A stretch of 64,000 bases of DNA from Planctomycetota bacterium (GTDB lineage Bacteria; Planctomycetota; Planctomycetia; Gemmatales; Gemmataceae). Shown one piece after another: positions 26,243-39,954 of the stretch (positions within the stretch are counted from its first letter, which is position 1; each line of letters opens with the position of its first letter). Location: positions 1 to 64,000 of the forward strand of contig JAIOPV010000164.1 in assembly GCA_021413735.1 (NCBI GenBank), given 5' to 3'. Below the pieces are notes generated by a model, which did not search any database, was not told the origin of the DNA, and was given only the letters and a program-made list of their open reading frames with translations. The translations under genes were made by a program, and so were the position numbers.

Positions 26243-26281
26243 ATGAAGAATACCAGGAATGCGTCTCGCGGAGTCTTGTGC

Positions 26282-27508
26282 ATGTCGAACCGTGAAGCGA
26301 AGCCGACTCCGCCACCGCACACCACCCGCTACGAGTTCTTCGAGCCGCTCGGCAGTGGCGGCACTGGCACGGTCTACCGGGCCCGCGACCTGACAACCGG
26401 CGACCTCGTGGCCGTGAAGGTTCTTCGTGCAACGATGTACGAGAACCCCACGCACCACCAGAGGCTTGCACAGGAATTCCGGGCATCGACGCAACTCGAC
26501 CACCCGAATATCGTGCGTGCGTTCGCGATGGAAACCGACGGCTCGACCAGCTTCCTCGTCTACGAATTCGTCGAGGGAAGAAGCCTCGCGGATCGCATCG
26601 AGAAAGAGGGGCCATTCCCGGAAGAGGAAGCGATTCGGATCATCACACAGGTCGTGCAGGCTCTTCACTACGCACACCAACGGCAGATCATTCACTGCGA
26701 CGTGAAGCCCGACAATATCCTGCTGCTGCCCGATGGCCGTGCGAAGCTCGCCGACTTTGGCCTGGCGAAGGATCACAACAACGACCAGAACCTCACGCAG
26801 CATGTCGGCATTCTCGGCACGCCGAATTTCATGGCTCCCGAGCAGTTCGGCGAAGCGAAGAGTGCTGGCGTTTTGTGCGATGTCTACTCGCTCGGTGCGA
26901 CGCTCTACAACATGGTGACGGGTCAACTTCCGTTCGATGTGAAGTTCGCGCTGGCGATGCTCTCGCAGAAACTTCAGGGCGAGATTCCTTCTGCTCGTGC
27001 AGTGCGACCCGAGATCGGCGAATGGGTTGATCGAGCGATCCAGGGCGCGATGAACCCGAAGCCAGAGCTTCGCCCCGACTCGTGCCTGACGTTCTTCAAG
27101 CTCCTGACAGCTCGACCACCATCCGCTCCTGAGCGTGCGTCGCCTGAGGCGATTCCGGTGCCGGACGGGCTAAATCGGCGGGCGTCGGTGCGTCATCGGC
27201 TTGTGGTTGGCACAAGCGCAACGGTCGATACGGCAGTGTTCGGCGGTGGCGAGGAGACGGTGGAGGAGTGGCCGTTGGTTGTGCGTGATGTATCGGTAAG
27301 TGGAATCGGCGTGACGCTGGCTCGGCGCTTCGAGCCGGGGACTGAATTGACCATCGAGTTAGCCGATGAGCCTTCGGCGAATCCGAGCAAGTTCGCGCTT
27401 CGCGTCGTTCGGGTGCGTTCGGAAAGTGCTGGTTTGTGGATTCACGGCTGTGAGTTCGTCAATCCACTCGGAGACAGCGAACTCTCAGCGTTGCTGGCGT
27501 ATGCGTGA
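26282..27508 (+). CDS. Ser/Thr kinase fused to PilZ (c-di-GMP) domain
   Basis: A 408-residue protein from ATG 26282. The kinase domain (about 16-275) has G-loop LGSGGTGTVY, catalytic Lys46 in VAVKVL, a loop IIHCDVKPDN (138-146) and DFG at 158-160. The HRD motif is HCD, so the conserved Arg is a Cys; Asp140 and the rest are intact and activity is likely. The C-terminal 110 residues are a PilZ domain with both c-di-GMP motifs: RRASVR (299-304) and DVSVSG (336-341). The protein would couple the second messenger to phosphorylation in the cytoplasm; no membrane helix is visible. It converges on the UDG gene 18 nt away. Confidence 0.85.
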   Translation: MSNREAKPTPPPHTTRYEFFEPLGSGGTGTVYRARDLTTGDLVAVKVLRATMYENPTHHQRLAQEFRASTQLDHPNIVRAFAMETDGSTSFLVYEFVEGRSLADRIEKEGPFPEEEAIRIITQVVQALHYAHQRQIIHCDVKPDNILLLPDGRAKLADFGLAKDHNNDQNLTQHVGILGTPNFMAPEQFGEAKSAGVLCDVYSLGATLYNMVTGQLPFDVKFALAMLSQKLQGEIPSARAVRPEIGEWVDRAIQGAMNPKPELRPDSCLTFFKLLTARPPSAPERASPEAIPVPDGLNRRASVRHRLVVGTSATVDTAVFGGGEETVEEWPLVVRDVSVSGIGVTLARRFEPGTELTIELADEPSANPSKFALRVVRVRSESAGLWIHGCEFVNPLGDSELSALLAYA

Positions 27509-27526: not shown

Positions 27527-28318
27527 TTACGCTTTCTTCTCGTTCGGATTCGGACGGCCCATCGTTTTCAGCAGGAGCTTCATATCTTCCCAAATGGCTC
27601 GACGTGTCTTCTCTGTCTCGTCACGGAGCATCGCTGAGGGGTGGAATGTGCAGATCAGCGGAACCCCGCGAAGTGTGTAGACCTTCCCGCGAAGCTTTGT
27701 GATACCCGTTGACGTGTTCAGCAGGTTTTTCGCGGCCGTGCCACCCAACGCCACGACATGCTTCGGCTTCACGATGTCGAACTGACGCTCGAAGAATGGT
27801 CGGCAATTCTCGCATTCCTCAAGCGTTGGGGGACGGTTCGCCGAGCCTGAACCAGTAGCCCCTGGTGGACGGCATTTCAGCGTGTTGAAGATGTACACTT
27901 CTTCTCGTTTGAAGCCGCAACCGTTGATGATGCGAGTGAGCAATTGGCCTGCCTTACCGACGAATGGTTCGCCAGCCCGGTCTTCGTCTCCACCGGGAGC
28001 TTCACCAATAAAGGCAACGTCGGGATCAATTGGACCAACACCGAAAACCGTTTGTCTGCGAGTTGAAAACAATTCCGGGCAGCGATCACATTTCTCAACC
28101 TCGGTCGCGAGGACGGTAAGTTCGCGTTTCCGAACCGCAATAGGATCGGGTGGTGGCGGCGGGAGTGGTTCTGCCTGCCGTGGCGTAACCGCGACCCGAA
28201 GGGGAGCGAGGGCGATCGGTTCACCACGCGGCACGAACATCACGCCGGCCGAACGAAGCGATTCGAGATGTGCCCGAACCTGACGGGTAAGATCAATCGG
28301 CGTTGCGTCGTCGGCCAT
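27527..28318 (-). CDS. Family-4 uracil-DNA glycosylase (Fe-S)
   Basis: A 263-residue enzyme of the UDG family 4 type that removes uracil from DNA. It has the four-cysteine 4Fe-4S pattern: CDRCPEL, then later CRPP and CENCRPF. Motif A is [17 protein letters not shown] and the HPS motif is [10 protein letters not shown]. The first 65 residues are a poorly conserved Pro-rich lead. The start at ATG 28318 has GGAGGAG 4 nt upstream, and it lies 19 nt after the ASPIC-protein stop, so it may be the last gene of the long minus-strand operon that starts at 39954, although its function (DNA repair) is unrelated. Confidence 0.9.
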
Positions 28319-28337: not shown

Positions 28338-31300
28338 TCAGCGTTTCCCCGCGGGGCGGGTGTTCCATGTGCGGTCGTATTCCGTCACCGTTGCGGGCGG
28401 CGGATGCTTCACCGGATCATACGGATAGTGGGGCATCCCGCGATAGGGCAGTGGCGACACATTCGCGCCGGTCACGGTGGTAAGGGCGGTGTCTTTGCAA
28501 TAACCCCAACTTCGCAACACGAACGAACGCTTCCACCCCGTCTTCAGTTCCGGGGGTGTTGCTGCGTCGAACTCGACGGTCACCTCGTCGCCGGGGCCGC
28601 AGATCACATGACGATCGTCCTGCTCACGAAGTAACTCCGTGACATCCCCCAGCCGCGTGAAATTGCCCTTCCACTGCGACACCGAAACCGATTCGAGTCG
28701 ATCGTAGTCGTAGGCGATCGGCAGCTTTCCGCCGGGCATGTGTTCGCGTGCGAAACCTCTGTGTTCCAACGACGCGGAGACCAGCGAGCAGCTGAACGGC
28801 GTGGCGGGCTTCGTGTCAGCGAGCGGCGCGATGAACAGTTGATCCCAGTAAATGCGGATGTTCGTGCGGATGCGAACCGACCCGCCATTCGGATCAATCC
28901 AGCCGGTGACGTCGGCCGTCATCACGCGGGTCAGCCCAGCGGGGAACCCGATCTCGCCGAGGTTCTTCCAGGTGCCGTCGGCTTGCTTCTGTTCGAGTAT
29001 CGGTGCGATGGTCGGCACGTCAGCTTGTGTCGCGGCGTAGATCGACTCGGGGTACGGGTAGTCGGTCCAGCCCGCGAGTACGAGATACACCTTGCGACCC
29101 GCGGGCAGCTTCTTGAGGTGCCCCGCGAAATCCAACTCCACGAAATGCTCCTCCGCGTAGCCGAGCCACGACCGCACGGCGAAGCCATCGACGTGTTTGC
29201 CGTTGCGTTCCCGCAATGTCGCTGTCACATCGCGCCCCTTGTGATCGGTTGCCTTCGTGGCGAAGATGCGTTCCGAATCGCGGAAGTACAGCAATTCCTG
29301 CGACGGCTGCGGCACGCTCGTGGCGAACCTCTCATCGGGAAAGACGCTGACTTCTGCGGGGTGATCGATCACATCGAGACGGAGCTTGTCGAGGTACATC
29401 ACTTCGTCCATCGGCTCCGCGATCTTCAGCGAATAGCGGCCGTTTCTCGGCGCGAGTTGATGTGCCTCGATCTTCACCGATTCCTCAGGTCGCGGCGGGC
29501 GAGTTGAACCGTCGGGGTTACCTTCGCCCATCGAGCCAGCGCCGAGCATGTCCGTGATGTATGCGAACCGTTCGCCATTCCACGCGAAGAGAATCGGGCA
29601 CGACGTTCCCTTGCGGTTCGTCTCCGCGATCTTGATGTCGCCCACCGCGAGGTTCAGTTCTGCTTGTGGCACGGCGTCGGGCCAACGGACCCGCACGACA
29701 TCCGCGACATTTTCTTTCCCGAGCCCGAAGTGCAACGGCAACCGCGATTGCCCAAGCCCCGCGAAGAGTGTCGTGTTCTCGGCACCGGTTCGCAGCGGTC
29801 CGGCGTGAATGCGAACCCAACTCCCAATACCGTCGCTGTTCGTGCGGCGATTGCTGCCCTTGTCGCGTGCCCCCGTGAGCGTCAGCCTCAGCGATTTGTT
29901 GCCGTTCCCGAGACTGCGAAGAACGTGCAATCCACTGGAAGCCGACCACGCCAGCACATCCGGGTTGCCGTCGCCATCAAGATCAACGGGCAGCACCGCG
30001 AGCAGATTCGGGAGAACTTCCGCGTCGGGACCGAACGGCGTGGCTTGCTTCGCGAATCGGCCAGTGCCATTCCCTTGCAGAAAGACAGGCTTGCCCTCAC
30101 CAGACAGGCCGACGATATCGGTGCGGCCATCGAGATCGAGATCGCACCACGCCGCCGAACGCAACGGTGGCGAATCCGTGATCCCAGAAGAGAACCTCGC
30201 AGCGAGGTTCTCTTCTGCATTGTCTCGCTTGCTCACGAGAACCCGGGGCACAGCCTCCGCATCAAGCAGCACGAGGTCAGTCTGATCGTCGCCGTTCGCA
30301 TCAACAACAAGCCCGCCGTTCCACTTTCTGGACGCTGTGGTAACAGAATCGCCGCGATGAAAGCGAAGCATCCGATCGTTCAGCACCGTGACCGGCGGCG
30401 TACCGTCTACGAGAACGATCAGGTCAGGATCGAAGTCGCCATCGACATCCGTGACGACCACGCCGGTGATTGGCCCTTTCACGAGAAGTGCGTTCGGTTC
30501 CGTAAGTTGCTTGAACGCGACCTTGAGCGGCAGCAGTTGGCCGGGCGGTGCAGGGGGGGCTTCGCCGACATTCGCGAACACGACGAGCCGAGCTTCACGA
30601 ACCGCGACGAGATCGAGGTCACCGTCTTGATCGAGATCAACCCACGACGCGGTCAGGTATTCGCCATCGTCCTTGTCGAACCCAGCCGCGGCAGATTTAT
30701 CCTCGAAAACTTTGCCGTCGGCGTTGCGGAACAGCTTCAACCCCGACGGCCCGCACAGAGCGAGATCGACGAAACCGTCGTTGTCGAAGTCGCCGACCGC
30801 GCCACCGAAACTGCCCGCGTGCTTGGTGAGTCCGCTCTCAGCAGTGACATCCGTGAACGTGTTCCCGTCGTTGCGAAGCAGCAAATCGCAGACGCTTCCC
30901 GCACGCATCACGGCACCGAGGACCAGCACGTCCGGCTTGCCGTCGCGGTTGTAATCGAGAAGCAGAATCGTGCCGCCGAATCGCGTGCGAACATGCTTCC
31001 GTGATTCATCGAGTTTGTCATCCGTTACCCATGTCGTGCCGGCCGCGAGGTTGACCGTGAACCCCTTCAACGACTCGAACATCGGCAGTCGACCAAGGAC
31101 TGGCGGTGGTGCTGGCGACGTGCCAATCACTTCCCCATAACGCCCCATCTCGGTGTACTTCACGTCCCACGCATCGCTGGCGTTCGCCTGCCCGAGTGCC
31201 TGGAACTCCGCGAGCAACTGCGCTTTGCGTGCCTCGTCCTCGGCCGTGATTCTGTGATTTGCGAGTGCGTAGCGTGCCGCGTTCAGATACGGATTCAGCT

Positions 31301-31856
31301 TCAACGCCTTCTCAAAGAAGTCTTTGGCCTCGGCAGATTCGGACGAGTTTGGGGTACAGCGGCCGCGCATGTACCACGCCTGTGCGTCGCGTGGATCGAT
31401 CTTCGTGACAGCCTTGAAATGCTTCGCAGCTTCCGTGAGTTCGTTGCGGTGATAGAGGATGATGCCCGAGCAAAACTGAGCGTGTGCGTTGTCGGGTTCT
31501 TGCTTCAGCACTTCGGTGAAGATTGCGAGGGCACGGTCGAGGTTCGCGGGCGTTTGCGTGTTCAGCAACGCGATGCCGAGGTTGATCTTCGCGGCGGTCC
31601 AGTCGGGGGCGAACTTGCTGGCCTCCTCGAACGCCTCAACCGCGAGTGGGTACTCGAACTGATCCATAAGCCCGATGCCGCGCACATTAGCTTGCGTTGC
31701 TTTCGCGAGGTCGGGTTGATCGGGCAGCGGCTGCGGAGGCGGCATCTTGAGGTAGTTCACCAGCCCGATGACCGCCAATGCGACCGACAGGATCACGTAG
31801 CCGAGGAGCCACTTGCGTGCCCGCGACGGCTTCGATTCGGGAGAAGGTGAAGACAT
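28338..31856 (-). CDS. Membrane-anchored TPR + FG-GAP + ASPIC/UnbV protein
   Basis: A 1172-residue protein. The start is ATG 31856, with GAGG upstream; GTG 31859 is adjacent. A single N-terminal helix (LLGYVILSVALAVIGLVNYL) anchors it. TPRs follow (about 45-235: AFEEASKFAPDWTAAKINLG, AEAKDFFEKALKLNPYLNAA). A seven-bladed-type FG-GAP/VCBS region (DVDGDFDPD, DLDGDGNPD) then leads into an ASPIC/UnbV domain (VRIHAGP, VRVRWPD). The C-terminal 500 residues are beta-rich and of unknown fold. Proteins of this CRTAC1-related class are extracellular and often calcium-binding. It lies 102 nt after the CRTAC1 gene, with a hairpin between them. Confidence 0.85.
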   Translation of the reverse strand: MSSPSPESKPSRARKWLLGYVILSVALAVIGLVNYLKMPPPQPLPDQPDLAKATQANVRGIGLMDQFEYPLAVEAFEEASKFAPDWTAAKINLGIALLNTQTPANLDRALAIFTEVLKQEPDNAHAQFCSGIILYHRNELTEAAKHFKAVTKIDPRDAQAWYMRGRCTPNSSESAEAKDFFEKALKLNPYLNAARYALANHRITAEDEARKAQLLAEFQALGQANASDAWDVKYTEMGRYGEVIGTSPAPPPVLGRLPMFESLKGFTVNLAAGTTWVTDDKLDESRKHVRTRFGGTILLLDYNRDGKPDVLVLGAVMRAGSVCDLLLRNDGNTFTDVTAESGLTKHAGSFGGAVGDFDNDGFVDLALCGPSGLKLFRNADGKVFEDKSAAAGFDKDDGEYLTASWVDLDQDGDLDLVAVREARLVVFANVGEAPPAPPGQLLPLKVAFKQLTEPNALLVKGPITGVVVTDVDGDFDPDLIVLVDGTPPVTVLNDRMLRFHRGDSVTTASRKWNGGLVVDANGDDQTDLVLLDAEAVPRVLVSKRDNAEENLAARFSSGITDSPPLRSAAWCDLDLDGRTDIVGLSGEGKPVFLQGNGTGRFAKQATPFGPDAEVLPNLLAVLPVDLDGDGNPDVLAWSASSGLHVLRSLGNGNKSLRLTLTGARDKGSNRRTNSDGIGSWVRIHAGPLRTGAENTTLFAGLGQSRLPLHFGLGKENVADVVRVRWPDAVPQAELNLAVGDIKIAETNRKGTSCPILFAWNGERFAYITDMLGAGSMGEGNPDGSTRPPRPEESVKIEAHQLAPRNGRYSLKIAEPMDEVMYLDKLRLDVIDHPAEVSVFPDERFATSVPQPSQELLYFRDSERIFATKATDHKGRDVTATLRERNGKHVDGFAVRSWLGYAEEHFVELDFAGHLKKLPAGRKVYLVLAGWTDYPYPESIYAATQADVPTIAPILEQKQADGTWKNLGEIGFPAGLTRVMTADVTGWIDPNGGSVRIRTNIRIYWDQLFIAPLADTKPATPFSCSLVSASLEHRGFAREHMPGGKLPIAYDYDRLESVSVSQWKGNFTRLGDVTELLREQDDRHVICGPGDEVTVEFDAATPPELKTGWKRSFVLRSWGYCKDTALTTVTGANVSPLPYRGMPHYPYDPVKHPPPATVTEYDRTWNTRPAGKR

Positions 31857-31901
31857 CACGAAGCCTCAAGCAAGCGGGCGGAATGAATGGCTACCGCGTA
31901 G

Positions 31902-31948
31902 CCGCGACCGAAGGGAGCGTTCGGGTATCACGCTCCTTTCGGTCGCGG
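31902..31948. terminator. Hairpin between CRTAC1 and TPR-ASPIC genes
   Basis: CCGCGACCGAAGGGAGCGT and its complement (18 of 19 pairs) flank a 9-nt loop. It lies in the 102-nt gap between two minus-strand genes, so it may be a partial terminator or RNA-processing site inside the operon. Confidence 0.55.
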
Positions 31949-31961
31949 CGACGCGAAAAAC

Positions 31962-33863
31962 TTAGGGTGAGGGTAAGTTCTGTCGCAGCGTGGACGCGGT
32001 GTTCGCTTTGAGGTTCGTCCACGTCTGCAACGGCAGCTCCTTGCCAGGCCAGCGCACCGTAACCTTGTCGATGATGTGATTCTCGCCAAGACCAACCGTG
32101 ACCGGCAGTTCACTCTGGCTCAGGTAGCCGCGTGCCCCAGCGACATCACGGCGATACGTTTTGCCGCCAGCTTCGACGGTCACCTGTGCCCCAATGGCGC
32201 TGGTGTTCGCGGTCTTGCCGTCGCCGACGAGTGTGAGCCGCACGAACTTGTTGCCGAGCTTCGTGTCGTTCCGCAGCAATCGAGCGCGACCGTTGTTCTC
32301 CACCAACACGACATCGAGATCGCCGTCGCCATCGAAATCGAGGAACGCCGAGCCGCGACCCACGAGCGGCCGGAACAGATCCTTCCCCGCGTCGGCTTCG
32401 CCGACTAGCTCGAAGACGCGAGCGGGGTCGCCGGTGTTCCAGTAGAGTTGCACCGGTTGTGCGAATTGCTGGCCAGCCTGAACGCGACCGATCTCCGGTT
32501 CGAGATGGCCATTGTTCACAAGCAAATCGAGGCGACCGTCGAGATCGTAGTCGAAGAAGAAGGTGCCGAACTTCAACGGGAAGCGGCTCGGACCCGTTAG
32601 CCCAACGGCGAGCGCAGAGTCAGTGAAACGCGGCTTCTTGGGGTCGGCGACCGTGAGGAACGTCAGCGGTTCGTTGGCGAAGTTTGCGATCACGATGCCG
32701 TGCTTGCCGGGCAAGTGTTCGCCAGCGTCGATGCCCATTGCACCGCGTGCCCGACCTTCCGCGTATGCCGCATTCGACGCCAGCCCTTTCTCCTCAAACT
32801 TGCGGCCGTTCGCCGTCGGCACGTTGTGGAAGAAGAAGTTTCGCACGGTGTCGTTCGCCACGATGAGATCGGGCCAGCCGTCGCCGTCGGGGTCGCACAC
32901 GATTACGCCAAGTGCCTTCGCAACGCGCCGCTCTTTTGCACCCGCTGCCGTGCCTTCCTTCTCGGTAACGATCACTCCGGCGACCGCTGACACATCCTCG
33001 AACATGCCGTCGCCGAGGTTGCGGTACAGGGCACACTGTGACCCTTCAAACTGTTGCGGCGGCAGATACGCCCGACCGATTCCGGTGAGCGTAGCATCGA
33101 TGGAAAGATCCACCGCCGGCGACCAGTTCACATACCGACACACGAACAGATCGAGTTTGCCGTCAAGGTCGTAGTCCACAAACGTCGCACTCGTGGCGAA
33201 CTCGATCGGCTCCCGCGACTTCAGGAACTCCTCGGCCAACAGGTTGCCGGGCCACTTGCCTTGAGGTGTGATGCTCGCGCTAGTCGAGATGTCCTCGAAG
33301 CGCCGGCTGCCGTCACCACCAGCTCCGTTGCGAAACAACTTGTTGCCTCCCACGCCAGTAACGAACAGATCACGGAAGCCGTCGCCGTCGATGTCGCCCG
33401 AACAGGCCCCCATGCCGTACATCGACACGACCAACCCCATGGCAACGGTCACGTCCTCGAACGTGCCGTCGCCCTTGTTTCGGTAGAGCGTGAGGCACGA
33501 CGCGGCGGGTTTGTCGGGGGCTTGGTTGCCGGGCCACGGACACGCATTCACGAACAGCAAATCCTGTCGGCCGTCGTTGTCGAAGTCGAGAACGCAGACG
33601 CCGCCACCCATCGTTTCGGGCAGCAGTTTCTTCCCGGTGGCACCGTTGAAGTGTGTGAACGTGATGCCGGCCGTGTCGGTTACATCGGTGAACGTGACCT
33701 TCGGAATCGCGATCGCTTCGCGTTCCTTGTTCGCGGGTACCTCGGGCGGCTTCACCTTGACGGGCGACACGAACCAGTCGGTCGTGAGCAGGATCACCGC
33801 AATGGCGATGCTGCTCAACGTCACGAGAACGAGCGCCATTCGGAAGAGGGTGCGGTAGGTCAT
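31962..33863 (-). CDS. CRTAC1-type FG-GAP/ASPIC protein
   Basis: A 633-residue protein from ATG 33863. The N-terminal helix (MALVLVTLSSIAIAVILLTT) is a signal or anchor. The main body is a beta-propeller of FG-GAP repeats with Asp-rich calcium loops: DFDNDGRQD, DIDGDGFRD, DYDLDGKLD, DPDGDGWPD, DYDLDGRLD and DFDGDGDLD. An ASPIC/UnbV domain ends it (GAQVTVEAGGKTYRRDVAGA). In animals CRTAC1 is a matrix protein; in planctomycetes such proteins are secreted and of unknown role. It lies 53 nt after the multiheme cytochrome gene. Ribosome binding is not obvious, so coupled translation may help. Confidence 0.85.
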   Translation of the reverse strand: MTYRTLFRMALVLVTLSSIAIAVILLTTDWFVSPVKVKPPEVPANKEREAIAIPKVTFTDVTDTAGITFTHFNGATGKKLLPETMGGGVCVLDFDNDGRQDLLFVNACPWPGNQAPDKPAASCLTLYRNKGDGTFEDVTVAMGLVVSMYGMGACSGDIDGDGFRDLFVTGVGGNKLFRNGAGGDGSRRFEDISTSASITPQGKWPGNLLAEEFLKSREPIEFATSATFVDYDLDGKLDLFVCRYVNWSPAVDLSIDATLTGIGRAYLPPQQFEGSQCALYRNLGDGMFEDVSAVAGVIVTEKEGTAAGAKERRVAKALGVIVCDPDGDGWPDLIVANDTVRNFFFHNVPTANGRKFEEKGLASNAAYAEGRARGAMGIDAGEHLPGKHGIVIANFANEPLTFLTVADPKKPRFTDSALAVGLTGPSRFPLKFGTFFFDYDLDGRLDLLVNNGHLEPEIGRVQAGQQFAQPVQLYWNTGDPARVFELVGEADAGKDLFRPLVGRGSAFLDFDGDGDLDVVLVENNGRARLLRNDTKLGNKFVRLTLVGDGKTANTSAIGAQVTVEAGGKTYRRDVAGARGYLSQSELPVTVGLGENHIIDKVTVRWPGKELPLQTWTNLKANTASTLRQNLPSP

Positions 33864-33916
33864 GATCGTTGTGGTATTTCGTCGTGAAGCGCCCCACCAT
33901 TGGGGCCGCCCCGATA

Positions 33917-36900
33917 TCAGCGGTTCGTCGGGTAGATCACGATGCCCTCGGCAGCGGCGTTCGCGGCTGGGTTCTTCTCGCGGTACTTCTGCGTCGTGGC
34001 GGAACGGGCCAGTTCGTCTGGCTTGTACATCGCGTGCGAAAGCTGATGCAGGCTCGCCAACGCCGCTGCGAGCGCCGCTTGCACCGTGGCATCTTTCTCC
34101 GCGTGGAACGCCGGCCTCAACTGTGCGATCAACGCCCGCACGGTTGGCAACCGTGGAGACGTTGGATCGGGGAGACGCTTGCCAATCGCCGTCACCGCAG
34201 CGGCCAGTTCGGTCGCGGCCTTCGTGCGATCTGCAGGCGAAGTTCCGGCTTTCGTAGCCGCGTCGCCGAGTTCCTTCAACCGCTCCGTGGATGGCGGTTC
34301 GGACGGAATCGCCACACTCGTCGTTCCGTGGCCGAGTTGCTCGTAGCACTGACTCAGCCCAAAGTGCGAATCTAAATCCTCCAGATCAACCGCGAGCGCT
34401 CTCTCGTAAGCAGACACCGAACGCAACAAGAACCCGCGTTCGGCCTCGGAGTGTGCTGCTTCCAACGTGCTGCGTTTGTAGAGCGTGCGGCCGAGTTCCG
34501 CGAGGACGACGTAGTCCCGCGTGAAGTCGAACTTCGGCTTGCCGTCGTCGTGCTTCGGTTGGTTCGCCGGGTCCACGATCTTCTCGAAGAGTGCCGCGGC
34601 CGCGTCGAGGTCGGCGGCGCGAGTCGCGTTCTGGGCCGTGAGCAGTCCGTTGAACCAAGCCAGCAACCACCACGGAGCAGGTGGGTCGCTTTCCTTCGCG
34701 GCGTTCAGTTCACGACCAGCCTCCGCGAGTCGCTGGGCGCCGCCCTGTTCCATCAGCACGCGAGCCAGATTCACATGCCCGTGCCAAACGGCATCCTTCG
34801 CTCCGAGCGTAAGCAGCTTGCGGAACGCTGCCTCGGCTTGCTTCAGGTTGCCGCGTTTCATCCCCGCGCCGCCCTCGATGAAGCAACCGATGCCGTAATC
34901 GTTCCACCGCTGCCACGGCGGCTTGATCGCCGACTCCTGCGGTGGCACACTCTCGGCAACGCCAGCCACCGGTAGTACCACGCGATCCTCGCAGATATCC
35001 ACGATCGGCAACTTCGGCACCGGCTTCCCAGCCTCCTTGTGCACGAGTTCCATGTACTTGTAGTCGAACTTGCGATACCGCAGTTTCACCGTGAGTTCGA
35101 CGGGGCCGGTCACATCGGGCGGCACCGTTAGCTTGTAATGCACGACCTGGCCGGCACCCGGCGGAATCTGCTTGTCGTACAGCGGCGTGAAGATGTCTTG
35201 CGGGTTGCGGCGGTCGATGCGGTTGCCGTTGCGATCAAGCATGTGAACGTTCACGAAGTGCGACCACGGATCGACCTCGCCCGTCTCGTCTGGTCCCGAC
35301 ATCGCACCGCTGCGACCAATCACTTTGCCCCCAGCAGTCGCCTTGAAGTCCACCCAGATCTCGTTGGAATCGACCGTGCCCTGACTGAACGGATGGCCGA
35401 TGTTCAGCGTGCGAATGACGACTTCGATGATGTGCGTTTCGCCTGGCTTGAGTTGTGGCAATGTCGGCCGAATCACCGCGGGCAGATCCTCCGAGGCGTT
35501 GATCGGCTTCACGCCGAACAGGTCGATTCGCAGCTTGCCGTCGCGGAGGAACTCGGCGGTCGTGTCGATGGCCTTCTGCAACTGCGGCTCACGCCCGGCG
35601 AGTCGCGGCTCCTTCTTCAGCAACTCGAACAGTCCGGTATTGGAACCCGGGAAGAAATGACTGTGCCGCTTGCGTGTGCCGGAGCCGTCGAAGTCCTTCG
35701 AACCGAAATCGCCGCTCGGTTCCAACGGCATGTGGCACGCGGCGCAGTTGTCCTTCTTGCCGGTCGGCGGGAAGTAGAAGCTCCGCGAGCCGTTACCCAC
35801 GCCACTCAAAATGAACGTGTCGTAATGGTTCTGGCCACGCAGGAAATCCTTGTAGTGATTCAGTTCCACCGGCAAGTGCACCTTGTGACACGTCGAACAG
35901 AACTCGGCGGTCTTATGGTGCGGCTTCAGGAATGTCTTCTTGTGAAGCTCCGGTTTCGCCTTAATGAGCTGGTTGTTGAGCCACTGGAGGGAACTCGAAT
36001 CGGAGTACGCGAACGGATAGTGCTGGGCTTCCTCGATGGTGTAAGCGGCGTTGCCGATCGGTGCGTTGACGTGCGTGATCGAGTGGCACACGACGCAGGT
36101 GATGCCGGCGTGGGCCGTCGGGTCGTTGATGATGTCGTAGTTGGGGTCGTCGAACTTCCCACTGAAGAACGGCACCGGATCGTGGCAGCCGGCACACCAA
36201 CGCGAGGCGTTCATCTTGCCGTCGCGCTCCAGCGACACCTTGCGGGTTTCCTTGACGCTGAACAGGTACGCCGGGTTGTTGAACGAACTGAACTTGTGCG
36301 CCGAGTGCAGATGGTCGTTGAAGATGTCCTGGTGGCACTTCATGCAGTACGTGTCGAGCATCATCGACTGCTCGGGGATGAACTTGCCGTCGGTCGTCCG
36401 GGCCTCCGACGGGAAGAAGTAACGCATGCCTTCCGGCGAACCTTCACGCCCGTATTTCTGCGGGTCGAGGATGTGAAACGCTGCCATGCTGACGACCACG
36501 GCCAGGACCACGACGCCGCCGTACTTGCCGTACTTCCACTTGATTGGCGGCCCGGCCCGGCGATGCAACACATATGCATACACCGCGAGGAGCGGCACAA
36601 GGACATGCGCGAAGTAGATCGACCAGCGGCCGACTGAACCGGTCGGCAGTTGCGGCATCCCCTCGATTTGGATGAGCGCCAACCCGGTGACGGCGATCAC
36701 CAACCCGAGCGCGAATACGATGACGCCCAGCCGCACGGCGACGCGGTTCTCTCGCTTGCGGGCGCTCCACCAGTGCGCGAAGCCGAACAGCAGGAACGGC
36801 GCAACACCCACAACACCGACAACGGTGTGCGCCAGGATCATCCAGAATGTGAAGCCTGTCGTGAAGAGTTGATCGGGCTTTACCCGGTTCATCACGGTGA

Positions 36901-37090
36901 TGCTGAGGAGGTAAATCCCAGTCGCGGCGAGGAAGCCGAACCCGGCGAACACCGCATACAGCAGCACCCGCAAGCGTGGACCGATCGCTGGCACATACGG
37001 AGCCGCGGGAGCCCCAGTCCGCTTCTTCACCACGACAGTCGGAACGCTCGCCGCTTCGTATTCACTCACGATCGACACTCCCCAGCTCAT
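33917..37090 (-). CDS. Membrane pentaheme cytochrome c with TPR domain
   Basis: A 1057-residue protein starting at ATG 37090, whose ATG overlaps the kinase stop (ATGA), so it is translationally coupled. Five hydrophobic helices occupy about 41-64, 81-107, 119-143, 155-177 and 191-207. Helix pairs carry His88/His106 and His162/His176, as in b-type heme proteins (inference). The exported part has five CxxCH haem-c sites at 249, 299, 332, 398 and 449 (CMKCH, CAGCH, CVVCH, CSTCH, CAACH), resembling the cytochrome c554/NapC-like group. A beta region and about six TPRs (790-1020) follow. It would carry electrons across the inner membrane to extracytoplasmic partners, possibly the CRTAC1 proteins encoded next. 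Confidence 0.85.
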   Translation of the reverse strand: MSWGVSIVSEYEAASVPTVVVKKRTGAPAAPYVPAIGPRLRVLLYAVFAGFGFLAATGIYLLSITVMNRVKPDQLFTTGFTFWMILAHTVVGVVGVAPFLLFGFAHWWSARKRENRVAVRLGVIVFALGLVIAVTGLALIQIEGMPQLPTGSVGRWSIYFAHVLVPLLAVYAYVLHRRAGPPIKWKYGKYGGVVVLAVVVSMAAFHILDPQKYGREGSPEGMRYFFPSEARTTDGKFIPEQSMMLDTYCMKCHQDIFNDHLHSAHKFSSFNNPAYLFSVKETRKVSLERDGKMNASRWCAGCHDPVPFFSGKFDDPNYDIINDPTAHAGITCVVCHSITHVNAPIGNAAYTIEEAQHYPFAYSDSSSLQWLNNQLIKAKPELHKKTFLKPHHKTAEFCSTCHKVHLPVELNHYKDFLRGQNHYDTFILSGVGNGSRSFYFPPTGKKDNCAACHMPLEPSGDFGSKDFDGSGTRKRHSHFFPGSNTGLFELLKKEPRLAGREPQLQKAIDTTAEFLRDGKLRIDLFGVKPINASEDLPAVIRPTLPQLKPGETHIIEVVIRTLNIGHPFSQGTVDSNEIWVDFKATAGGKVIGRSGAMSGPDETGEVDPWSHFVNVHMLDRNGNRIDRRNPQDIFTPLYDKQIPPGAGQVVHYKLTVPPDVTGPVELTVKLRYRKFDYKYMELVHKEAGKPVPKLPIVDICEDRVVLPVAGVAESVPPQESAIKPPWQRWNDYGIGCFIEGGAGMKRGNLKQAEAAFRKLLTLGAKDAVWHGHVNLARVLMEQGGAQRLAEAGRELNAAKESDPPAPWWLLAWFNGLLTAQNATRAADLDAAAALFEKIVDPANQPKHDDGKPKFDFTRDYVVLAELGRTLYKRSTLEAAHSEAERGFLLRSVSAYERALAVDLEDLDSHFGLSQCYEQLGHGTTSVAIPSEPPSTERLKELGDAATKAGTSPADRTKAATELAAAVTAIGKRLPDPTSPRLPTVRALIAQLRPAFHAEKDATVQAALAAALASLHQLSHAMYKPDELARSATTQKYREKNPAANAAAEGIVIYPTNR

Positions 37091-39954
37091 CCACCCAGTA
37101 ACCACGCGAACCAACCCTGGCCCGCGACCCGTCCGCCCCGAACGTGAGCCGCGAACTGTGCCGCCGTCGCGTGTCGCTTCTTCGGCTTCCACTCCATCGC
37201 ACGCCGACAAACTCGCCCCAGTGCACCCGATTTCGTTGCGGTTCGACGCGCTCGAGAAGCCGCTTCTTGAAGGCCGATCCATCTTCGGTCGGGCAGCCCC
37301 GCCCGCGTTCCGAACACGTTCTCGGGTGGAATTCCCATCAGCAATTCTGCGAGCAACGCCCCGAGCGCATACACATCGGCGGCCGGCGTGAACTTGATCG
37401 GTTCACGCAACAGATACTCCGGCGGCTTGTAGCCAGCCCGCGTTTCCAACTGCACATCGAGAACGCCAGTCTGCGCCGCCCCCCACCGACCTTCCACGTC
37501 GGCAACGAGTCGGAAGTCGGTGACTCGCGGTGTGCCGTCCGCGGCGAACAGGATCTTGTCGGGGTCGAGATCGCCGTGGAATAGCCCGTGCTGGTGTGCG
37601 TGGTGAACGGCAAGCGCGATTGTCGCGGCAAGTTCAGCGGCAGCCCCCGCCGTGAACGGTCCGCTTGCGAGTTTCTTCGTCAGCGTGCCGCCCGGCAGAT
37701 ACTCCTGAATGACGGTCAGCCGGCCCCCGTATTCCTCGATGCCGAGAGTCGCGCGAATGTTCGGGTGGCGGATCTTCGCCGCGGCAGAGAGCGTTCGGGT
37801 GAGTTGAACCTTGGCGGCGGGCGAGAGCCTGGCTGTGTCGATCTGGTGAAGCGTCACATCTTCGCCTTCGGGCGTGCGCGCCTTCACGAGTCTGCCGAGG
37901 CGGGTATCTCCGAGTGGCTCGACATGGCTGAACCCGGACGGAACTCCGCGATCCCCTGCGACGGTCGGACCGCCAGTGGGGCCAGGAGCTTCGCGAAGGA
38001 ACGTCTTCAGTGCATCGGCAACATCGTCGGCTTTCTGATATCGACGTGACGGGTTCGCATCGAGGCACATCAAACAGATCGACTCCAATCGTGCCGGCAA
38101 ATCGACCCGCACTCGCCCAGGCGAGACAAGTGTGCGTTTGGGATCAGGAACGCGGCCGGTGAGGAGCATGTAGAGCACCGCACCGAGAGCGTAGATATCG
38201 TCGGCAGCGCGGCCCGGTCCTTGCGACAGATCGGTGAACGTGACGGTTCCGTCAGCTGCAAGCAGGATATTCGCGGGCGACAGATTCCCGTGAATGTGCC
38301 CGAGCGCGTGCAGTGTCGCGAGCGCCGTGGCTGCCTTCGCGGTTAGTTCGGCAGCGTCGCGAACGGGCCGATCTGCTGGCGCGACTCGCTCTGCCAACGC
38401 CGCGAGGCTTCCACCCGGAACGTACTCCATCGCGCAGTACACCAACCCGTCGCGCTCGCCGAGGTCGTACACTTCGACGACCAGCGGCCGGGGAGCGTGA
38501 CCGGCCTTGTGGTAATGCCGTTTCACTTCGGCCGCGATGACCGCTTGCCGTTCGAGTTGTTCGAGCGCTGCCTGCCGACCGGCCAAACTCGTGGATACCA
38601 CCTTGAGCGCGACTTCACGCCGCAGTCGAGTTTGCCGTGCCCGATAGACTTTTGTCTCGTCGTTACCGCCAAGCACGCCAAGCAGATCAAAGCCCGACCG
38701 CCGAGCCCAGTGCGCGAACCACTCTTCGCGATTCACGACCGTCGCGCGAACCTCGGCACCAGCGAGGAATCCGCGAAGATCGGTCGCGAGTTCGCCAGCA
38801 GTCGCGTAGCGGTCAGCGGGGTCTTTCTCCAGGCATTTCAAGCACACGGCTTCAATCGCCGGGGAAATGCCAGCTCGTACTCGCGTCGGCGGAAGGGGCT
38901 TGTCCATGACCTGCGCGAGAACCAGTTCCATGCTCGTGCCCTGAAACGGCGGCGTGCCCGTGAGGCACTCGTACATCATCGCGCCGAGAGCATAAACGTC
39001 CGCAGCAGGTCCGATGTCGGTGCGGCCCTGGGCCTGTTCAGGTGCCATGTATGCGGGCGTGCCGAGGACGGTTCCGGAATTCGTGAGGCCGCCGTCGGAT
39101 GCGAGGTCTTTCGCCAGCCCGAAGTCGGTGATGATCGGCGTGCCGTCGCTGCGAAGCAGAACGTTACTCGGTTTCAAGTCGCGATGGATGACACCCGCCG
39201 CGTGAGCAGCCTGAACGCCCCACGCCAGCACTTCCATCAACTCGGCAACCTTGTTATCGGTCAACTTCTCTTTGCGAAGCCGATCCGCGAGGTTGCCGCC
39301 TTCGACCAGTTCGAGCGCGATGTACGGGCAACCGTCGAGTTCGCCCGATTCGTAAACGCGAACGATGTGAGGGTGATTGAGCCTGGCGAGTGCCTGTGCC
39401 TCAGCGAGAAACCGCAGCCGATGCGCCGGGCTGACGTGTTCGCCACCGAGGATCATCTTCAACGCGGCGAGCCGGTTCAGTCGGCGATGTCGTGCCTTGT
39501 AGACAACGCCCATGCCGCCGCGACCAAGCTCACCGAGAATCTCGTAGCCGACGAGATCACGCGCCGAACCCGCCGCTGACCGCGTCGCATCGGTCAGGGC
39601 ATGCCAACGATCGACGAGCCGACGGATTCGCTCCGAACAGTTGGGAAATCGCCGAACGAGGTTCTCAACATCGGAAGCCATACCGCGTTCGGTAGCGAGC
39701 ATGAATTCCTGAAACGCGAGGTCGGCGACGTGAGCGGCTTCCGCCGCCAGCGCTGGCAGTGCCGCGAGATAGGCTTCGACGCGAATGTGCTCGCCGATTG
39801 CCCAGCGAGCACGAAGATCAGCCATCACGAGCATGGCTTGTTCGTGTGGCGCGAGGTCGGCGAGCCTGGAGACGGATTCCGGCAGTGGCGCCCCAGCCGA
39901 GAGCGTTGCGCTTTCGGGGTTCTCGGAAGCGATACTGATGGCTGCGCTTTTCAT
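37087..39954 (-). CDS. Ser/Thr kinase with one active and two pseudokinase domains
   Basis: A 955-residue protein from ATG 39954 (MKSAAISIASENPESATLSA), GAGAG upstream. A helical region (35-125) precedes kinase 1 (137-397), which is intact: LGRGGMGVVY, Lys166, HRDLKPSN at 257-264, DFG at 277-279, APE. Kinase 2 (422-655) keeps Lys451 but has HGNLSPAN (catalytic Asp to Asn557) and DLS for DFG. Kinase 3 (about 676-940) lacks the VAIK lysine, has HGDLDPDK and DFR instead of DFG. The second and third are therefore likely pseudokinases that bind or regulate. No membrane helix. The stop overlaps the cytochrome start, tying the kinase to that operon. Confidence 0.88.
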   Translation of the reverse strand: MKSAAISIASENPESATLSAGAPLPESVSRLADLAPHEQAMLVMADLRARWAIGEHIRVEAYLAALPALAAEAAHVADLAFQEFMLATERGMASDVENLVRRFPNCSERIRRLVDRWHALTDATRSAAGSARDLVGYEILGELGRGGMGVVYKARHRRLNRLAALKMILGGEHVSPAHRLRFLAEAQALARLNHPHIVRVYESGELDGCPYIALELVEGGNLADRLRKEKLTDNKVAELMEVLAWGVQAAHAAGVIHRDLKPSNVLLRSDGTPIITDFGLAKDLASDGGLTNSGTVLGTPAYMAPEQAQGRTDIGPAADVYALGAMMYECLTGTPPFQGTSMELVLAQVMDKPLPPTRVRAGISPAIEAVCLKCLEKDPADRYATAGELATDLRGFLAGAEVRATVVNREEWFAHWARRSGFDLLGVLGGNDETKVYRARQTRLRREVALKVVSTSLAGRQAALEQLERQAVIAAEVKRHYHKAGHAPRPLVVEVYDLGERDGLVYCAMEYVPGGSLAALAERVAPADRPVRDAAELTAKAATALATLHALGHIHGNLSPANILLAADGTVTFTDLSQGPGRAADDIYALGAVLYMLLTGRVPDPKRTLVSPGRVRVDLPARLESICLMCLDANPSRRYQKADDVADALKTFLREAPGPTGGPTVAGDRGVPSGFSHVEPLGDTRLGRLVKARTPEGEDVTLHQIDTARLSPAAKVQLTRTLSAAAKIRHPNIRATLGIEEYGGRLTVIQEYLPGGTLTKKLASGPFTAGAAAELAATIALAVHHAHQHGLFHGDLDPDKILFAADGTPRVTDFRLVADVEGRWGAAQTGVLDVQLETRAGYKPPEYLLREPIKFTPAADVYALGALLAELLMGIPPENVFGTRAGLPDRRWIGLQEAASRARRTATKSGALGRVCRRAMEWKPKKRHATAAQFAAHVRGGRVAGQGWFAWLLGG

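Follow-up and report, generated by a model that had tools for sequence, protein, structure and literature searches.

A predicted membrane-anchored pentahaem cytochrome genetically linked to CRTAC1-type propeller proteins in Planctomycetota and Verrucomicrobiota

Which of the closely spaced genes around a multihaem cytochrome of a Gemmataceae planctomycete belong together, and what might their products do? The stretch of DNA analysed here, referred to as the window (the first 64,000 nucleotides of contig JAIOPV010000164.1), had initially been annotated with an operon of four genes, for a triple kinase, a pentahaem cytochrome, a CRTAC1-type protein and a TPR-ASPIC protein. All four genes are indeed present on the same (minus) strand (Table 1), and the gaps of 53 nt between the cytochrome and CRTAC1 genes and of 102 nt between the CRTAC1 and TPR-ASPIC genes were given correctly. 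The kinase stop (TGA) and an in-frame ATG share bases, as described (ATGA), but this ATG is probably not the true start of the cytochrome, because a GTG at 37069, 17 nt past the kinase stop, has GGGGAG eight bases ahead, whereas the ATG has no such site, and because the aligned portion of most cytochrome relatives starts at residues 10 to 32. Judging from the sequence, GTG 37069 is the likely start. Furthermore, the same-strand run extends past the TPR-ASPIC gene: a uracil-DNA glycosylase (UDG) gene, absent from the initial annotation, follows at 19 nt, so that spacing alone would rank it as a member ahead of CRTAC1. A promoter and terminator scan returned fewer sites than were found in shuffled sequence, and the GC profile of the block of three genes (cytochrome, CRTAC1 and TPR-ASPIC) shows no step at either end. 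Overall, the four-gene unit was drawn wrongly: these three genes are the real module, and the kinase lies outside it.

Table 1. Features of the locus, with positions in the window.
Feature	Position	Strand	Remarks
Triple Ser/Thr kinase (P0001)	39984 (or 39954) to 37087	-	One domain with the usual motifs, two degenerate; judged outside the module
Membrane-anchored pentahaem b/c cytochrome with TPR tail, 1057 aa	33917..37090	-	Translation, 5 CxxCH, AF2 model
Cytochrome: five TM helices, residues 38-207	36470..36979	-	AF2 model; H88, H106, H162, H176 inferred b-haem ligands
Cytochrome: pentahaem c domain, residues 240-520	35531..36373	-	Cytochrome_C554, 5ze8 profile and fold match
Cytochrome: beta-rich domain, residues 521-706, motif QGTxDSNE, invariant H566	34973..35530	-	
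Cytochrome: helical TPR tail, residues 725-1046	33953..34918	-	Absent from third subfamily
CRTAC1-type FG-GAP propeller (P0003), ASPIC/UnbV domain, N-terminal hydrophobic stretch	31962..33863	-	
TPR-FG-GAP-ASPIC protein (P0004), GTG start 31859, N-terminal hydrophobic stretch	28338..31859	-	
TPR-ASPIC: C-terminal domain, ~430 aa, no Pfam family	28341..29627	-	
Uracil-DNA glycosylase (UDG) family 4	27527..28318	-	Kinase's neighbour in G013; judged outside the module

The kinase had been placed at the head of the operon and proposed to control, or be controlled by, a redox chain, and its shared strand and overlapping or 17-nt junction with the cytochrome gene in this genome are what such a role as controller or sensor has in its favour. 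Inspection by eye shows that only its first domain keeps HRD and DFG; the second has HGN, and the third lacks the VAIK lysine (VTLH). Searches of 58 relatives, in each of which the 14 best first-look candidates were scored, recovered a full-length orthologue (E ≤ 1e-100) in a single genome of the same genus, G013 (71% identity). There, the kinase and UDG genes are adjacent, with 13 nt between the kinase stop and the UDG start; the genome has no match to the cytochrome, and the CRTAC1 and TPR-ASPIC genes are also missing from this site. G013 is colinear with the window from position ~16.8 kb to the UDG gene, except for a ~1.3 kb stretch near 21.5-22.9 kb, and past the other end of the kinase the two genomes cease to resemble each other in the stretch compared. 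The adjacency of kinase and UDG without the three genes implies that the latter came or went as a block in the window and, since elsewhere the set is found in different genomic contexts, the window lineage is more likely to have gained it than G013 to have lost it. We infer that a three-gene block was probably inserted between pre-existing kinase and UDG genes, creating the false appearance of a kinase-led operon.

Consistent with this, no P0001 orthologue sits beside the cytochrome in any relative's locus examined, so that the proposed order of kinase and cytochrome is not conserved; for instance, in G003, which has the most similar cytochrome (76-77%), the upstream gene encodes a sigma-54 response regulator and not a kinase. 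The few kinase domains encountered near cytochrome loci are kilobases away and 34-51% identical to P0001 or to a kinase-PilZ protein of the window. A count over 80 loci, which left out weak kinase matches under 80 bits, revealed P0001-like domains at 34-35% identity in two loci (L057 and L064), upstream by more than 6 kb, and relatives of the kinase-PilZ protein at 47-51% in two others (L061 and L063), downstream by more than 6 kb. A partial kinase domain lies at the edge of L037 and another (34%) ~2.3 kb upstream in G038; none of these domains is orthologous to P0001. The kinase is thus probably a chance neighbour of the cytochrome, and its regulatory role, now largely refuted, appears very improbable. 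Tight gene spacing was misleading here, as the empty site in the close relative G013 makes the UDG gene, too, look like a bystander. Two further observations concern these neighbours. The kinase-PilZ protein, a kinase fused to a domain of the c-di-GMP-binding PilZ family, adjoins the UDG gene in the window (26243-27508) and is colinear in G013. In G025, the set likewise has a UDG gene beside it (L031, 11825-12832), although upstream and divergent, yielding two arrangements of the same neighbour.

The cytochrome was described initially as inner-membrane b-type helices followed by five c-type haems, an architecture borne out by the fusion of four invariant transmembrane histidines to five haem motifs, with haem binding predicted. 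In the AlphaFold2 model (68 sequences; pLDDT 87.3, pTM 0.85), both pairs of these histidines, H88, H106, H162 and H176, lie on helices TM2 and TM4, a placement that would suit a stack of two b-haems spanning the membrane, and they are the putative ligands of two such haems. They are invariant in 68 of the 68 aligned main-subfamily sequences as well as in all 16 members of two divergent subfamilies, and the same holds for all five c-haem motifs, the first of which takes the form CX4CH, not CxxCH, in the five aligned members of the third subfamily (L189, L190 and L192-L194). The transmembrane part (residues 30-215) matched no Pfam cytochrome b family and nothing named above the cut-off, including families of the HydC/FdnI type; the Ni/Fe-hydrogenase b subunit family was matched weakly in 1 of 19 members (E 0.04), and a remote kinship is possible.

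Scanned alone, the haem domain matches Pfam Cytochrome_C554 above the cut-off (E 2.5e-4), a family also matched in 19 of 19 relatives at E ≤ 0.1. Its profile matches pentahaem cytochrome c552 of Thermochromatium tepidum (5ze8) over the first three motifs (E 3e-4), and with VIA-align residues 239-706 of the model align with most of c552 (Z 13.3, rmsd 4.0, 341 aligned of 385); TPR proteins reach an equal Z, but mainly over another part of the model. A Foldseek search with the whole cytochrome gave nothing at E ≤ 0.001, and the 50 matches listed were mostly TPR and other repeat proteins, with no cytochrome among them. NCBIfam ExtKL (NF040886) was matched at E ≤ 0.1 in 8 of 19 members, but not in the window protein up to that E-value; scanned singly at E ≤ 0.001, it matched five of nine chosen relatives at 19-36 bits (best 35.6) against a cut-off of 250, which none of the nine reached. 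The cytochrome thus shares with c552 five c-haem motifs (one being CX4CH in the third subfamily) and the fold, whereas the profile matches to c552 and ExtKL are weak. To our knowledge, c552 and ExtKL cytochromes are not fused to b-type membrane domains or TPRs. Cytochrome c552 itself has been presented as structurally akin to the pentahaem cytochromes of cable bacteria, grouped with ExtKL, and to an archaeal nanowire cytochrome (PMC11976967).

The histidines outside the haem-binding motifs bear on a different role, in which the cytochrome would be a periplasmic reductase or oxidase of the wider c554 type, fed by quinol, with its own c-haem domain turning over a small substrate that the propellers bind or deliver. 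Besides the Cytochrome_C554 match, it gains from the fact that in the haem and beta domains only four extra-motif histidines (H265, H383, H478 and H566) are invariant across the three subfamilies, H422 being replaced by E or Q and H476, H611 and H651 being variable; with four such residues for five haems, the divergent subfamilies could ligate one haem in another way, and one site might be open or unusual. However, the main subfamily has, from residue 240 to residue 706, eight extra-motif histidines that are each shared by 65-68 of its 68 sequences, enough for five bis-His haems, and the matches listed in the family scans included neither NrfA nor HAO families, the NrfB models being matched weakly. 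We regard an enzymatic role of this kind as unlikely.

How far does the set extend beyond this genome? A scan of genomic contigs returned at least 571 relatives of the cytochrome. The best 80 of these at least 571 loci comprise, by their titles, 50 from Planctomycetota, 29 from Verrucomicrobiota and one unassigned, with a few titles being doubtful MAG names, and include planctomycete isolates of Zavarzinella, Singulisphaera, Tautonia and Rhodopirellula, which are ordinary aerobes. The initial notion of a planctomycete system holds for the former 50 loci but is too narrow, given the 29 from Verrucomicrobiota; the module is widespread in both phyla. In a sample of 294 Planctomycetota genomes, with the two best first-look candidates scored per genome, 82 (that of the window included) encode the cytochrome at E ≤ 1e-50.

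Pooling yielded 138 loci with the cytochrome, 131 of them distinct once identical ones were removed and 121 with at least 1200 nt examined downstream. A CRTAC1 gene lies directly downstream, that is, on the same strand with -120 to 800 nt between domains, in 107 of the 121 loci (88 of 99 in the main, 13 of 16 in the divergent and all 6 in the third subfamily), at a median distance of 32 nt. Because the window's own genome contains just seven UnbV_ASPIC matches, two of them inside the window, this linkage is far beyond chance. The part of the proposed gene order that is conserved in these relatives is the cytochrome followed by CRTAC1. Directly adjacent CRTAC1 is missing in 14 of the 121 loci; the 11 from the main subfamily include two with CRTAC1 further downstream, one with it just upstream and eight with no same-strand CRTAC1 in the stretch examined, although one of the latter (L128) has an opposite-strand paralogue.

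Furthermore, distances between cytochromes correlate with those between the adjacent CRTAC1 proteins (r 0.89 over 107 loci, 0.85 over the 88 main and 0.86 over the 13 divergent ones), with none of 999 permutations reaching as high a value, and with shared species descent contributing to r. No other neighbour rivals CRTAC1: inspected by eye, the remaining clusters were mostly antisense shadows of module genes, plus planctomycete prepilin-like and other genes. A carbon-nitrogen hydrolase gene occurs nearby, upstream, in 4 of 20 loci of a first set, two of the four having been checked against Pfam. A second ORF with at least two CxxCH motifs is present in just 9 of the 131 distinct loci, within the stretch examined, and thus no second haem protein is conserved.

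We assessed the relationships of the CRTAC1 proteins in a quick tree of 87 sequences, with long branches flagged, comprising 37 of 89 main-subfamily proteins (36 random ones and that of the window), all 19 other linked ones and 31 unlinked ones. The cytochrome-linked proteins of the main and divergent subfamilies fall in one branch of 56 sequences (SH-aLRT 99), and those of the third subfamily form a branch of their own (SH-aLRT 100). On this tree, the cytochrome-linked CRTAC1 proteins do not form a single exclusive clade, as linkage changes seven times. The 56-sequence branch also holds six proteins scored as unlinked. Three of these are encoded just upstream of a cytochrome (L051), ~2.2-2.5 kb downstream (L089) and 3.3 kb downstream (L173), a fourth is an additional copy that precedes a linked locus on its upstream side (L084), and a fifth lies 3.8 kb away on the opposite strand (L083, a locus with 153 nt examined downstream). 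The sixth, an orthologous CRTAC1 of G016 from the same genus (L134 13953-15896 = L195 5953-7896), is ~54% identical to that of the window and comes without a cytochrome, the genome having no haem-domain match at E 1e-3; it is possibly a remnant of the module.

Both the CRTAC1 and the TPR-ASPIC proteins match FG-GAP_3 and UnbV_ASPIC above the Pfam cut-offs, domains shared with murine CRTAC1 (9etn), to which the window CRTAC1 is related at the sequence level (E 5e-11) and the TPR-ASPIC propeller in its predicted fold, 9etn being its best match (E 1.9e-20). In the initial annotation, the redox chain was proposed to run from the membrane to secreted calcium-binding propellers. Several DxDxDGxxD-type sites are conserved in the aligned CRTAC1 proteins, which would fit calcium binding. 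Electron transfer to secreted propellers is not supported by the 22 aligned CRTAC1 partners, none of which contains CxxCH; no cysteine column is conserved at 95%, and most N-termini have, by eye, a hydrophobic stretch resembling a membrane anchor, with a simple lipobox pattern in 3 of 22. Lacking CxxCH and having anchor-like N-termini, CRTAC1 does not appear to be a free secreted electron carrier, but is probably a haem-free partner anchored in the envelope. The bacterial proteins thereby differ from murine CRTAC1 both in looking, by eye, membrane-anchored or lipoprotein-like and in being genetically tied to a cytochrome.

The TPR-ASPIC protein, for which the AlphaFold2 model is moderate (nine sequences; pLDDT 71), carries 430 C-terminal residues that matched no Pfam family. 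In the sample of 294 planctomycete genomes, matches to this domain at E ≤ 1e-20 are found in 74 of the 82 genomes with the cytochrome (E ≤ 1e-50) versus 22 of the 212 others, with six domain and two cytochrome candidates scored per genome (Fisher P 7e-40, uncorrected for species kinship). Of the 96 genomes with the domain, 22 thus have no cytochrome at E 1e-50, and five of these 22 show a haem-domain match at E 1e-3; in the 28 genomes that encode TPR-ASPIC or its relatives but no strong cytochrome, the number matched by the haem-domain profile is five (E ≤ 1e-3). Of 12 domain-only genomes examined, 11 have no cytochrome around the domain, and in L213 a third-subfamily one lies ~5 kb off. At the cytochrome loci themselves, TPR-ASPIC is encoded within the stretch examined in 15 of 99 main cases and in none of the 16 divergent or the 6 third-subfamily ones. 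The small number of such loci, together with the existence of the domain away from a nearby cytochrome, marks TPR-ASPIC, on the evidence of the genomes compared, as a looser third member of the module. Other forms of the protein were also encountered. In G012 (L131 9312-9632), only the last ~105 residues are present (60% identity), beside a CRTAC1 paralogue, in what looks like a decayed copy. L132, L133, L134 and L148 hold members of a second TPR-ASPIC subfamily (~30-34% identity), which goes together with a CRTAC1 paralogue of its own, and these stretches contain no ORF with three or more CxxCH motifs.

Among characterized systems, the closest parallels in layout are CbcL and ImcH/CymA, quinol oxidases that serve extracellular respiration from the inner membrane and, like the window cytochrome, combine a transmembrane part and a periplasmic multihaem c domain in a single polypeptide (PMC9129911; PMC6295460). 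CbcL is one chain with a di-haem b membrane domain and nine c-haems (PMC9129911), and the transmembrane histidines needed for two b-haems are present here as well, their binding being predicted. However, in CbcL as described there, the nine c-haems come first and six helices of the HydC/FdnI-like type last, whereas here five helices precede five c-haems; the window cytochrome further differs in its beta domain, TPR tail and CRTAC1 partner. Because the order, the haem number and the helix number differ, we do not class it as CbcL, and the likeness that we draw is one of predicted function.

Our best reading, by analogy, is nevertheless that the complex would work like CbcL. The two putative b-haems would take electrons from the quinone pool, or give them to it, and the five periplasmic c-haems would carry electrons outward to a periplasmic partner. 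The haem-free, calcium-type propellers of CRTAC1 and TPR-ASPIC would be anchored beside the cytochrome and, if the proteins indeed form a complex, might serve as subunits for docking, for assembly or for positioning a partner without themselves carrying electrons. We lean, by a modest degree of confidence, towards regarding the cytochrome, CRTAC1 and TPR-ASPIC as an inner-membrane, quinone-linked b/c electron-transfer module with propellers in such supporting roles.

True extracellular electron transfer, with minerals, humics or partner cells receiving electrons that the complex would feed across the outer membrane, would accord with the CbcL-like layout and with the fold relationship of the haem domain to c552, kin of the ExtKL-family cytochromes of cable bacteria and of an archaeal nanowire cytochrome (PMC11976967). 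Against it speak the scarcity of further multihaem ORFs at the 131 distinct loci, the propellers being devoid of haem motifs and the aerobic isolates among the hosts, and we consider this outcome rather improbable.

Another association between a haem protein and a CRTAC1-type protein can be found in planctomycetes, where an FG-GAP gene with the annotation CRTAC1 family protein is reported to lie between genes whose products are homologous to hydrazine synthase subunits (PMC12758564). The haem protein and the gene content differ from those of the present module. Hydrazine synthase was not among the matches listed in the searches made here. The clusters suggest that CRTAC1 proteins have partnered haem proteins more than once. 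This was the nearest counterpart in the open-access full text searched, in which no paper on the cytochrome-CRTAC1 module was found; the initial view of the system as possibly undescribed thus stands for that literature. Nor did the open-access literature searched offer a function for bacterial CRTAC1-type propellers.

More tentatively, the module may represent an undescribed respiratory complex of Planctomycetes and Verrucomicrobia, in which the periplasmic hand-off from a quinone-linked b/c pentahaem cytochrome would be organized by a propeller of the CRTAC1 type, joined in many species by a scaffold of TPRs and propeller that has a new C-terminal domain. CRTAC1-type propellers occur in Planctomycetota and Verrucomicrobiota and in animals. 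If our interpretation is true, bacterial CRTAC1 would be a subunit of an electron-transfer complex, the first function for this family in bacteria. The genetic link between CRTAC1 and the cytochrome is strong and old. It opens a specific function to testing and, for these two large phyla, points towards a branch of respiration, or of redox chemistry in the periplasm, that has gone unrecognized.
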